This document shows, one piece after another, positions 691 through 3,428 of a DNA stretch of 36,537 nucleotides. The number at the start of each line of letters is the position of its first letter. Within the stretch, counting starts at the first letter, position 1. The notes below the pieces were generated by a model. That model did not search any database. It was not told the DNA's origin and saw nothing but the letters and a program-made list of their open reading frames with translations. The position numbers and the translations under genes are program-made. Source of the DNA: an uncultured Bacteroidota bacterium (GTDB taxonomy: Bacteria; Bacteroidota; Bacteroidia; Bacteroidales; GWA2-32-17); assembly GCA_903872185.1 (NCBI GenBank), contig CAIQJL010000004.1, positions 1 through 36,537 of the forward strand, written 5' to 3'.

Positions 691-728
691 ATATTTAAAA
701 TTATGTCGTATGTTTGCGACATAATTTT
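687..728 (+). promoter_or_regulatory. Promoter of the mercury cassette with overlapping palindromic operator
   Basis: TTG at 687-689, 19 nt, then TATGTTTG at 709-716 matches the Bacteroidota promoter pattern (TTG, about 19-20 nt, TAnnTTTG). A perfect 12-bp inverted repeat, AAAATTATGTCG (697-708) and CGACATAATTTT (717-728), flanks the -7 box so that its 8-nt loop is exactly TATGTTTG. A repressor dimer on these arms would cover the promoter. The arsR ATG follows at 735, so the leader would be only about a dozen bases. Binding by the encoded ArsR protein is inferred from position. Confidence 0.75.
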
Positions 729-734
729 ATTTAA

Positions 735-1073
735 ATGACCTATTCGAAAAATCATGCTTTTAGTTCTGAATTGCAAGAAATTGCAACAATTTGCAAAGCA
801 TTATCTCATCCTGCAAGAATAGCCATACTTAAGCATCTTTCAACTTGTTCGAGTTGCATTTCTGGAGATATAACAAAAGAAATACCTTTAAGCCGATCAA
901 CAGTTTCTCAGCATTTACAGGAATTAAAAAAGGCAAATTTGATAGAAGGAGAAATAGACGGAGTAAAAATATGCTATTGTCTAAATTCCAAAATTATTAA
1001 AAAGCATTTCGGGTTATTAAATAAAATACTAATCGAAATATCTACAGAAAATAAATTCACTAAATGTTGTTAA
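735..1073 (+). CDS. ArsR/SmtB-family metal(loid)-responsive repressor
   Basis: A 112-residue winged-helix repressor of usual ArsR length. The recognition region runs from about residue 42 to 70 (I-S-G-D-I ... S-R-S-T-V-S-Q-H-L-Q-E-L-K-K-A-N-L-I). Six cysteines are placed as expected for a thiol sensor: Cys38 and Cys41 just before the HTH (the position of the classical ArsR metal site), Cys80 and Cys82 in the wing strand, and a terminal Cys111-Cys112 pair. ArsR proteins leave DNA when As(III), Sb(III) or another soft metal binds. It is the first gene of the cassette, 7 bp after the palindrome flanking the -7 box, and 15 bp before the next gene. ArsR-like regulators upstream of hgcAB are known from other methylators. 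Its inducer (As, Hg or another) cannot be told from sequence. Confidence 0.92.
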   Translation: MTYSKNHAFSSELQEIATICKALSHPARIAILKHLSTCSSCISGDITKEIPLSRSTVSQHLQELKKANLIEGEIDGVKICYCLNSKIIKKHFGLLNKILIEISTENKFTKCC

Positions 1074-1088
1074 ATAAATAATTAAATC

Positions 1089-1406
1089 ATGGAAGAAAAC
1101 AAAGATCAAAAGGATTGTGGTTGTGGTACAGGCGAAAATAAAGAATGCTGTCCACCAAAAAGTTCAAAAAAACGCATGTGGACAACAATTATTTTTATTG
1201 TTGTTATATTAGCAGCAGGCTTATTAATTTCTTATAAAATGTTTTGTCCTCATGCATGCAAAGGCGATGCAACATGCCCAAAAGACAGTATTGCGTCATG
1301 TTGTGCAGGAAAAACAATGACAGACACAGCGGCAGTTCCTTCTTGTTGCGCAGGAAGAGCAATAAAAGACACAACAGCTGTTCCATCTTGTTGTGCTAAA
1401 AAATAA
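1089..1406 (+). CDS. Cysteine-rich single-pass membrane protein with three SCCA repeats
   Basis: A 105-residue protein with 13 cysteines. The N-terminal segment carries Cys10, Cys12 and the pair Cys20-Cys21, followed by a Lys/Arg-rich stretch (about 24-29) and one membrane span (about 32-49). The positive charges suggest N-in, C-out topology, which puts Cys53, Cys57, Cys63 and three repeats of the form S-C-C-A-(G/K)-(K/R) (pairs 71-72, 86-87, 101-102, 15 residues apart) in the periplasm. I do not recognise a named family. Vicinal cysteines bind Hg(II), As(III) or Cu(I) well, and HgcB in the same operon also ends in Cys-Cys. A role as soft-metal capture protein or metallochaperone is inferred. 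The start is supported by the 15-bp gap to arsR and the 3-bp gap to the next gene. An alternative is a thiol redox partner of the CcdA-like protein. Confidence 0.85.
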   Translation: MEENKDQKDCGCGTGENKECCPPKSSKKRMWTTIIFIVVILAAGLLISYKMFCPHACKGDATCPKDSIASCCAGKTMTDTAAVPSCCAGRAIKDTTAVPSCCAKK

Positions 1407-1409
1407 AAA

Positions 1410-2105
1410 ATGAGCGAGTGGATTAACACTGCTTTAAGTTCAGGTGCTGGTTCTTTCTCAATGCTAACAGCAGTTTTTTTATTGGGAATAATCAGCACCT
1501 TTACATCTTGCTGTAATTATGCAATACTTGGTTCTATTACCGGGTATTCTGCAAATTATGCTGTAAATTCGAGCAAGAAAAGCCAGATCTTATTTAGTTT
1601 AGCATTTTTAATTGGCAGTGTTATCTCTCTGGCAATTATTGGAGCGCTTATGGGGTATATTGGATCAACAGTTGTAACAGCAGTAGGCATTTACTGGAAA
1701 ATAGCTGTTGCAGTTTTATTAATTCTTTTTGGACTTTTATCTTTAGGATTAGTTCCTATAACAATTCCCCAAATAAATATTAAAAGTAAGAGACAAGGAT
1801 TTATTCCAGGTATAATTCTAGGCGTTTTTACCGGTGGATTATCATTAGTTTGTAATGTGTGTTGCAATCCTATTCTACCTATTGTTTTGGGAGCATCATT
1901 TGTAAAAGCAAGTGTAGTTTGGGGAATATTAATTTTGATTGCATATGCCATAGGCTATAGCCTGCCTTTTACAGTGGCAATTGCAGGAATGCAAATGGGA
2001 TTTGGAAAACTTTCAAACAAAATGAAAAATGCAAGCAAGATCATTACAACTATTGCTGGTATCATTATGATTTTATCAGGATTTTATTTAATTTACACTT
2101 TTTAA
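1410..2105 (+). CDS. CcdA/DsbD-like membrane protein with vicinal cysteine pairs
   Basis: A 231-residue integral membrane protein with about six spans, the size and layout of CcdA, the core of DsbD. The family moves reducing equivalents from cytoplasmic thioredoxin to the periplasm through one cysteine in each of two pseudo-symmetric spans. Here the first helix has T-S-C-C-N-Y (Cys34-Cys35) and the matching helix of the second half has C-N-V-C-C-N-P (Cys148, Cys151, Cys152), followed by the family's P-I-L-P segment. The doubled cysteines are unusual and resemble metal-passing pairs as in MerT. It sits 3 bp after the Cys-rich gene and 2 bp before hgcA, so it is almost certainly co-transcribed with them. 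Likely roles, both inferred: keeping periplasmic thiols of the Cys-rich protein reduced, or passing Hg(II) across the membrane. Confidence 0.88.
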   Translation: MSEWINTALSSGAGSFSMLTAVFLLGIISTFTSCCNYAILGSITGYSANYAVNSSKKSQILFSLAFLIGSVISLAIIGALMGYIGSTVVTAVGIYWKIAVAVLLILFGLLSLGLVPITIPQINIKSKRQGFIPGIILGVFTGGLSLVCNVCCNPILPIVLGASFVKASVVWGILILIAYAIGYSLPFTVAIAGMQMGFGKLSNKMKNASKIITTIAGIIMILSGFYLIYTF

Positions 2106-2107
2106 AA

Positions 2108-3130
2108 ATGCATTTTGTTACAAGTTACATAAATCTTGAAACTAAAATTCCAGTAGTTTCAACAAAACTTGAAACAAGAGATTATTTTGGTGCAATAAAA
2201 GCCAGATGGTCAATAAACAGAAGCAATTACAAAATAACTCCTGGTTTATACGCAATAGGAAATCCTAACAAAAATTCTGAGGTTTTTGTAACATCAAATT
2301 ATAAGCTAAGCTTTGATCATTTAAGAAAAAATCTGGTTGGATTAAATGCCTGGATACTGGTTTTAAACACTAATGGCATTAATGTATGGTGTGCTGCAGG
2401 TAAAGGAACATTTGGTACAACTGAACTTGTTTCAAAAATAAATGAATTCTCGTTAAATACTATCGTAGATCACAAAAGAATAATTGTTCCCCAGCTTGGC
2501 GCAGTTGGCATTTCAGCGCATGAAGTAAAAAAGGAAACTGGTTTTAACATAAAATACGGACCAGTAAATGCATCTGATATAAAAGACTTTTTAAACAAGA
2601 ATTATAGATCTGATATTAAAATCAGAACAGTTAATTTCAGATTTAAAGACAGGCTTATTCTAACTCCAGTTGAAATTGTTGCTCATTTTAAATATTTGAC
2701 ATTACTTTTCTCTGCCTTTTTTATTTTAAGTTGTTTAAGTAGAGATGGATTTTCTGTTGATAAAGGTTGGGATTATCTTCATATTATTATATTAAATCTT
2801 GGTGGATCGTATATCTGCGGAACAGTGCTTACACCAATATTTTTACCATATATTCCATTCAGAAACTTTTCATTTAAAGGATTAATTATTGGTTTTATTT
2901 TTTCTTCAATAATTACATTTTTTAACATTAATGGCAACAATATACCTGAATTAATTTCGTGGCTATTCATAAATCTTGCTATTGCTTCTTTTACGGCAAT
3001 GAATTTTACCGGTGCATCAACATATACCTCGCTTTCGGGAGTAAAAAAAGAAATGAGAATTGCATTACCAATTCAAATTGGACTATTTGTTATAGGATTA
3101 ATTACATGGATAATTCTTAGATTTATTTAA
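2108..3130 (+). CDS. hgcA: HgcA, corrinoid-dependent mercury methyltransferase
   Basis: HgcA transfers a methyl group from its corrinoid to Hg(II), making methylmercury. The protein is 340 residues, close to the 338 of the ND132 enzyme. The N-terminal half is the CFeSP-like corrinoid domain with the diagnostic cap-helix motif N-V-W-C-A-A-G-K at 92-99; Cys95 is the expected lower cobalt ligand. Other family segments are T-P-G-L-Y-A-I-G (44-51), V-T-S-N-Y-K-L-S-F-D (61-70) and V-P-Q-L-G-A-V-G (127-134). The C-terminal half has about five membrane spans (roughly 195-212, 224-248, 256-273, 280-297, 319-338) and the conserved M-N-F-T-G-A-S-T-Y-T-S-L-S-G-V segment at 298-312. It starts 2 bp after the CcdA-like gene and ends 4 bp before hgcB. 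No corrinoid synthesis or acetyl-CoA pathway genes are in the window, so methyl supply must come from elsewhere. Confidence 0.97.
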   Translation: MHFVTSYINLETKIPVVSTKLETRDYFGAIKARWSINRSNYKITPGLYAIGNPNKNSEVFVTSNYKLSFDHLRKNLVGLNAWILVLNTNGINVWCAAGKGTFGTTELVSKINEFSLNTIVDHKRIIVPQLGAVGISAHEVKKETGFNIKYGPVNASDIKDFLNKNYRSDIKIRTVNFRFKDRLILTPVEIVAHFKYLTLLFSAFFILSCLSRDGFSVDKGWDYLHIIILNLGGSYICGTVLTPIFLPYIPFRNFSFKGLIIGFIFSSIITFFNINGNNIPELISWLFINLAIASFTAMNFTGASTYTSLSGVKKEMRIALPIQIGLFVIGLITWIILRFI

Positions 3131-3134
3131 TAAC

Positions 3135-3428
3135 ATGACATTAACTTATTTAAAAAACGTTACTACACTTGAACTTGATACAGAAATATGTACTGGTTGC
3201 TCAATGTGTTTTATAGTTTGTCCACATAATGTGTTCGAAATAAAAAACAAAAAATCGATAATTATAAATAAAGACTTTTGCATGGAGTGTGGTGCCTGCC
3301 AAAAAAACTGTCCAGATAATGCCATTAAAGTTCAAACAGGGGTTGGTTGTGCTGCAGGTATAATTATTGGTTTTATAAATGGTACTGAACCTGATTGTAG
3401 TTGTGGGGAAGGTTCGACCTGTTGCTAA
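3135..3428 (+). CDS. hgcB: HgcB, 2[4Fe-4S] ferredoxin partner of HgcA
   Basis: HgcB is thought to reduce the HgcA corrinoid to Co(I) and to hand over Hg(II) through its thiols. The protein has 97 residues. Two ferredoxin motifs are complete: Cys19, 22, 25, 29 and Cys49, 52, 55, 59, each followed by proline. After the clusters come the conserved lone cysteine (Cys72, in G-V-G-C-A-A-G) and a tail with Cys88, Cys90 and the terminal pair Cys96-Cys97. A lone Cys plus C-terminal Cys-Cys is the HgcB signature that separates it from ordinary ferredoxins; the extra C-S-C just before the terminal pair gives four tail thiols. It is the last gene of the operon. No strong terminator hairpin is visible in the 120 bp after it. 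Confidence 0.96.
   Translation: MTLTYLKNVTTLELDTEICTGCSMCFIVCPHNVFEIKNKKSIIINKDFCMECGACQKNCPDNAIKVQTGVGCAAGIIIGFINGTEPDCSCGEGSTCC

Follow-up and report, generated by a model that had tools for sequence, protein, structure and literature searches.

The hgcAB operon at the start of the analysed DNA (the window, 36,537 nucleotides of contig CAIQJL010000004.1 from an uncultured Bacteroidota bacterium) contains a two-protein membrane module that, in some other genomes, lies beside arsM instead of hgcA. The module consists of SCCA, a small Cys-rich protein with a single helix, and CcdA-CC, a six-helix protein of the CcdA/DsbD_TM fold family. The extra cysteines of CcdA-CC are conserved, SCCA is its constant partner, the methylase gene next to them is exchanged between loci, and the operator in front of the operon is common to an acr3-arsC operon. 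We see about an even chance that arsR, SCCA and CcdA-CC form a membrane module that moves between arsenic operons, teams with ArsM or HgcA(B) and passes trivalent arsenic or mercury from thiol to thiol.

The five genes are packed tightly on the forward strand in the order arsR-SCCA-CcdA-CC-hgcA-hgcB, with intergenic gaps of 2-15 bases. The first, arsR (735..1073), encodes an ArsR/SmtB metalloregulator with a CxxC motif (TCSSC) and a C-terminal KCC, and matches PF01022 at 39.7 bits (cut-off 22) and NF033788 at 66.9 bits (cut-off 55). SCCA (1089..1406, 105 aa) and CcdA-CC (1410..2105, 231 aa) follow. The last two genes are hgcA (2108..3130), encoding a corrinoid protein in which the NVWCAAGK motif is present, and hgcB (3135..3428), encoding a dicluster ferredoxin with CC at its end. 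Both products score above the curated NCBIfam cut-offs (NF040863, 422 bits against 275; NF040864, 121.7 bits against 99).

CcdA-CC matches DsbD_TM (PF02683, 37.7 bits, cut-off 27.1) and PF13386 (28.7 bits, cut-off 24.9), and among solved structures its sequence comes closest to CcdA 5VKV (profile E 3e-5). The first-pass annotation had stated that normal CcdA uses single cysteines where this protein has doubled ones, and the alignment with 5VKV bears this out, because C35 and C152 align with the single cysteines of SPC and TPC in helices 1 and 4, and C34 and C151 fall on the prolines. The Pro of the canonical "PC" is thus a Cys in both helices. SPC has become SCC in helix 1 (codons of C34-C35, 1509..1514, forward strand), and TPC has become VCC in helix 4, within C148-N-V-C151-C152 (1851..1865, forward strand; C148 at 1851-1853, C151-C152 at 1860-1865). 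Across the family, CcdA-CC shares with CcdA/DsbD_TM the six helices and the positions of the active-site cysteines, but has Cys or another residue in place of the preceding Pro and extra cysteines nearby; this Pro is usual in CcdA/DsbD_TM, perhaps not strictly defining, and is missing from both helices of the window protein. An AF2 model of fair quality at best (pLDDT 69) retrieves 5VKV at Z 6.7, level with many transporters; since its VIA-align comparison fails to tell CcdA apart from LeuT-type transporters, the family assignment is taken from sequence. A role in cytochrome c biogenesis was considered and set aside, as no cytochrome c genes were noticed beside members when the ORF lists were read by eye.

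Profile searches for homologues covered 393 genomes of the order, 365 of the phylum and 297 of the phylum of the Desulfomonile relative, all without a CCNP pattern, and their results were joined by 14 genome-contig loci that were obtained with a CCNP pattern and so carry its bias. A single-sequence scan of the genome contigs gave no matches, and an alignment-based scan gave the 14. Among loci up to L183, a score gap separates 30 distinct proteins, all scoring at least 183 bits, from 46 that reach no more than 77 bits, with ORFs below 150 aa (including the fragment L006/L053, 134 bits) and copies sharing identical last 150 residues left out. Multi-Cys clusters are present in both helices in 28 of the 30 CcdA-CC members and in none of the 46 other CcdA/DsbD/ArsG homologues (no cluster in 41, one cluster in 5). 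All 30 have two cysteines in helix 1; the two exceptions, L144 and L145, have a single Cys in helix 4. The spacing varies, from CC or CxC in helix 1 to CxxCC, CC or CxxxC in helix 4, and the canonical positions C35 and C152 are invariant in 22 aligned members. In a tree of hand-picked rows, CcdA-CC forms a clade of 30 rows, overlapping the 30 high-scoring proteins, with support of 100/98. The doubled cysteines are a feature of this well-supported clade, not a chance occurrence. The first-pass annotation holds up in so far as the doubling is out of the ordinary, kept within the clade and associated with metal(loid) operons; the case that it had named as refuting, the same doubling being frequent in CcdA proteins without a link to metals, did not arise (none of the 46 comparison homologues).

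The neighbouring genes were tallied locus by locus for 31 distinct CcdA-CC loci (the 30 and the fragment L006). Eighteen have only hgcA within 2.5 kb, and six have only arsM, directly adjacent (L017, L021, L022, L023, L092, L093). One locus, L147, has both methylase genes in the order arsR-arsM-SCCA-CcdA-CC-hgcA, which brings the totals to 19 for hgcA and 7 for arsM. Other ars genes only are found in two loci (arsDA in L144; arsR and a permease in L145), no such neighbour in three (L020, L090, L146), and a contig edge in one (L024). L020 and L090 have neither a methylase nor another ars gene nearby, and L146 has an ArsG-type gene on the opposite strand. The ArsM proteins of L017, L021, L022, L092, L093 and L147 score 326-369 bits with NF008823 (cut-off 263), and that of L023 was assigned by similarity only.

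Supported branches of the tree force at least six changes between hgcA and arsM as the partner. For example, the sister pairs L095/L093 and L016/L017 differ in their partner, and the first pair has support of 100/100 on the CcdA tree. The gene order of L093 is arsR, an arsC::arsM fusion, SCCA, CcdA-CC, acr3; that of L095 is arsR, arsC, SCCA, CcdA-CC, hgcA, hgcB, acr3. This exchange beside one and the same module hints at related tasks for the two enzymes. Two of the loci have further peculiarities: the L093 fusion (L093:1984-3216, reverse strand), lying upstream of SCCA and CcdA-CC, has NCBIfam matches to both its arsenate reductase and its ArsM part, and in the single ArsM, SCCA, CcdA-CC, HgcA operon of L147 (L147:5008-7892) no hgcB was seen adjoining hgcA.

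Within the 393 genomes of the order, CcdA-CC is present in 16, HgcA above its cut-off in 23, and ArsM (E <= 1e-60) in 108. Fourteen of the 16 CcdA-CC genomes have HgcA (P 5e-18) and two have ArsM, so that every one has one or the other. HgcA and ArsM occur together in 0 of the 393 (P = 4.8e-4, one-sided and uncorrected for relatedness); genera g10, g66, g138 and g139 each contain genomes with HgcA and genomes with ArsM, but never both in the same genome. A looser ArsM search of the 23 HgcA genomes found a best score of 179 bits, whereas the ArsM proteins of the 108 genomes all score at least 226 bits. When tested, two of the weaker ArsM-like proteins reach 178 and 196 bits against the ArsM cut-off of 263, and because such proteins occur there, a diverged ArsM may conceivably be present in these genomes. 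Outside the order, genome G568 has ArsM and HgcA in the one operon of L147, and the two are therefore not strict alternatives. An exclusion as a general rule is also weakened by PMC12953829, which places arsM among the arsenic genes of MAGs with hgcA in a marine blue hole.

Ars genes lie within 6 kb of HgcA in 18 of the 23 loci, and an ars gene or CcdA-CC in 21 of 23, with contig ends limiting several. Four loci of hgcA-bearing genomes (L180-L183) encode a 214-220-aa ArsM-like methyltransferase that starts with CCLSCGGAI and, in the single case scored, does not reach the ArsM cut-off; in all four, the gene lies beside an apparent radical-SAM maturase, as judged by eye. A caveat to the HgcA count is that the hgcA gene appears broken or partial, with internal stops or in pieces, at L084 and L081 in genomes G176 and G016.

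These neighbourhoods bear directly on a possibility raised by the first-pass annotation, that CcdA-CC acts in the manner of MerT, as an Hg(II) conduit dedicated to delivering Hg(II) to HgcAB. MerT has a vicinal Cys pair in its first membrane helix, as has CcdA-CC, and the 14 of 16 CcdA-CC genomes with HgcA agree with such a role. MerT is, however, unlike CcdA-CC in size and fold, and no MerT family was found among the Pfam or NCBIfam matches of the window proteins. Furthermore, CcdA-CC lies beside arsM in genomes without HgcA above the cut-off (L017, L021, L022, L023; G102, G162), and the operator is common to an arsenic operon. We consider a dedicated mercury conduit highly improbable. A link to mercury as such finds no support, since the doubled-Cys protein and an SCCA-type partner adjoin arsM in all six arsM-only loci. 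The mercury-specific reading is too narrow for this distribution. In the 14-locus set, five of the six genomes with a non-hgcA locus have no HgcA match, and the sixth, G766, has a sub-cut-off match only. What stands of the earlier interpretation is the unusual doubling, the metal(loid) operons and the pairing with SCCA; the specificity for mercury is not supported.

The pairing with SCCA is strongly supported, as a Cys-rich single-helix protein is encoded directly upstream in 29 of 29 CcdA-CC members with upstream sequence. The SCCA of the window has four cysteines on the N side of its helix and nine on the C side, forming four CC pairs and no CxxC, and has no Pfam match above cut-off and no NCBIfam match. 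Basic residues precede the helix, suggesting that the N side is probably cytoplasmic and the C side outer. Of 22 SCCA proteins measured, all have at least three cysteines before the helix and 21 at least three after it (L091 has none after), and a CxxC is found in a single one. Such a pattern, with cysteines on both sides and CxxC in 1/22, is as expected for ligand rather than redox chemistry. In L021, L022, L143 and L144, SCCA has an extra domain, which in L021 is predicted to have a thioredoxin fold without CxxC (model from four sequences, pLDDT 55).

On the favoured reading, CcdA-CC and SCCA would hand trivalent arsenic species and, by extension, mercury species, whether methylated or not, from one thiol to the next, probably outward. 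Loading would take place on the cytoplasmic side, through either the methylase or the cysteines clustered at the N terminus of SCCA. Within the membrane, the metal(loid) could then be bound as a dithiolate or trithiolate by the paired active-site cysteines of the CcdA fold in helices 1 and 4, and on the outside the CC tail of SCCA would take it up, leading to export of a methylated or inorganic product. This transfer is favoured by the loose spacing of the extra thiols, the CC pairs of SCCA on both sides and the near-absence of CxxC; by the fact that the products of a methylase must leave; and by ArsG, which shares the fold family and to which efflux of organic arsenicals has been ascribed. 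It is disfavoured by the invariance of the canonical cysteines and by the predicted thioredoxin-fold domain of the partner, which is typical of CcdA partners, as well as by the single helix 4 Cys of L144 and L145 and by L020 and L090, where a methylase or ars gene is lacking.

The main and serious rival is an electron relay, in which CcdA-CC draws electrons from cytoplasmic thioredoxin so that the CC pairs on the outer side of SCCA, and any arsenic or mercury bound there, stay reduced, with the extra cysteines tuning or protecting the relay. The CcdA fold with its invariant canonical Cys positions, the DsbD_TM match above cut-off and the extra, predicted thioredoxin-fold domain of some SCCA partners (L021 modelled) all speak for it. 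Against it, CxxC is missing from 21 of the 22 CcdA-CC partners, in which they differ from the partners of CcdA/DsbD_TM; the spacing of the extra cysteines (CC, CxC, CxxxC) is odd for a tuned redox pair; and a single Cys in each helix is enough for ordinary CcdA relays (two clusters in 0/46). We rate thiol-to-thiol metalloid transfer above a pure electron relay, which we regard as unlikely, though well worth reckoning with. A stationary thiol buffer, in which CcdA-CC and SCCA just sequester As(III) or Hg(II) at the membrane and neither transport it nor transfer electrons, would suit the Cys-rich character of SCCA on both sides, but the conserved six-helix CcdA fold and active-site positions are hard to explain for a sponge, and we think it improbable.

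If the module teams with either ArsM or HgcA(B), then HgcAB would, in these Bacteroidota, belong to the enzymes of arsenic operons and count Hg(II) among its substrates. The fuller claim is that CcdA-CC and SCCA make up a new thiol-relay exporter of trivalent arsenic and mercury, methylated or free, and that in these Bacteroidota HgcAB is a functional counterpart of ArsM with a native role in arsenic methylation or detoxification and methylmercury as a side reaction; we advance it tentatively, as rather unlikely to hold in full.

Just before arsR, positions 696..729 form a perfect palindrome with 13-base arms and an 8-base spacer, a probable ArsR operator. It encloses TATGTTTG, a match to the Bacteroidetes -7 promoter box (TAnnTTTG). 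Searching the same genome with the 18-base core at up to two mismatches recovered one other site, before the arsR of an operon ending in arsC and acr3; at up to three mismatches there are four sites against two in a reversed control, and so only the closer match counts. The core GTATGTTTGC recurs near arsR in hgc loci L003, L012, L013, L014, L019, L084, L096 and L097 and in arsM loci L092, L169, L170 and L172, overlapping or abutting the assumed arsR start in L096, L097, L169 and L170. This recurrence is partly due to the promoter box inside the core, and the exact core is absent from L016, L017, L093 and L095. The second arsenic operon of the window genome (L192, G000:C205:7500-17500; also L193, L194), with its near-identical operator, has the order arsR, a 242-aa protein, an ABC-type permease, an ATPase, a small protein, arsC, acr3; by eye, the 242-aa protein is thioredoxin-like with a Cys-containing C-terminal tail and the small protein is DUF1573-like.

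Among known systems, ArsG (NF040495) resembles CcdA-CC in its CcdA-type fold, its ars operons and its small upstream partner gene. PMC9144182, citing a 2019 paper, describes it as a transporter for the efflux of organic arsenicals. ArsG takes the place of CcdA-CC in the hgcAB operons of L082, L083 and L085 (L083 by similarity only), and the hgc operon of L018 has both. Unlike CcdA-CC, ArsG has single-Cys SPC and FCP motifs as a rule and forms a separate branch of the tree, and the window protein scores 22.3 bits with NF040495, far under its cut-off of 200. TsoB (NF045694), a rhodanese/DsbD fusion-like selenoprotein, has a DsbD-like part that weakly matches 8 of 22 CcdA-CC members (20-22 bits where printed, cut-off 805) and likewise belongs to a metalloregulated operon, with the window ArsR weakly matching TsoR. 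CcdA-CC differs in lacking the rhodanese fusion and any TGA in its ORF, and the window protein has no match to NF045694 at E<=1e-3; with weak matches only, a selenocysteine form of the TsoB type was rejected.

The proximity of hgcAB to ars genes is already known. PMC7438021 (McDaniel 2020) reports acr3, arsC, arsR and arsM near hgcAB, as in the loci described here, and PMC10349881 an hgcAB-ars association with ArsR control and an arsenic response in ND132. The CcdA-CC/SCCA module and its methylase swap were not found in the literature searched, to which subscription papers were mostly external: there, CcdA is unnamed in work naming both hgcA and hgcB, nothing combines hgcA with 'cytochrome c biogenesis', and arsM with CcdA yields only unrelated hot-spring metagenome work. 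A module that takes hgcAB or arsM, the mutual avoidance of the enzymes in 393 genomes and an operator common to an acr3-arsC operon make an arsenic role testable as the native function of HgcAB, from which methylmercury stems. They raise the question of whether hgcAB operons of this type are arsenic-responsive, arsenic-methylating or arsenic-protective, and whether CcdA-CC is the exporter of the product. As a minor observation, HgcA at L143:4500-7016 (reverse strand) carries bacterial Ig-like domains as an in-frame fusion, unless this is a frame artefact.
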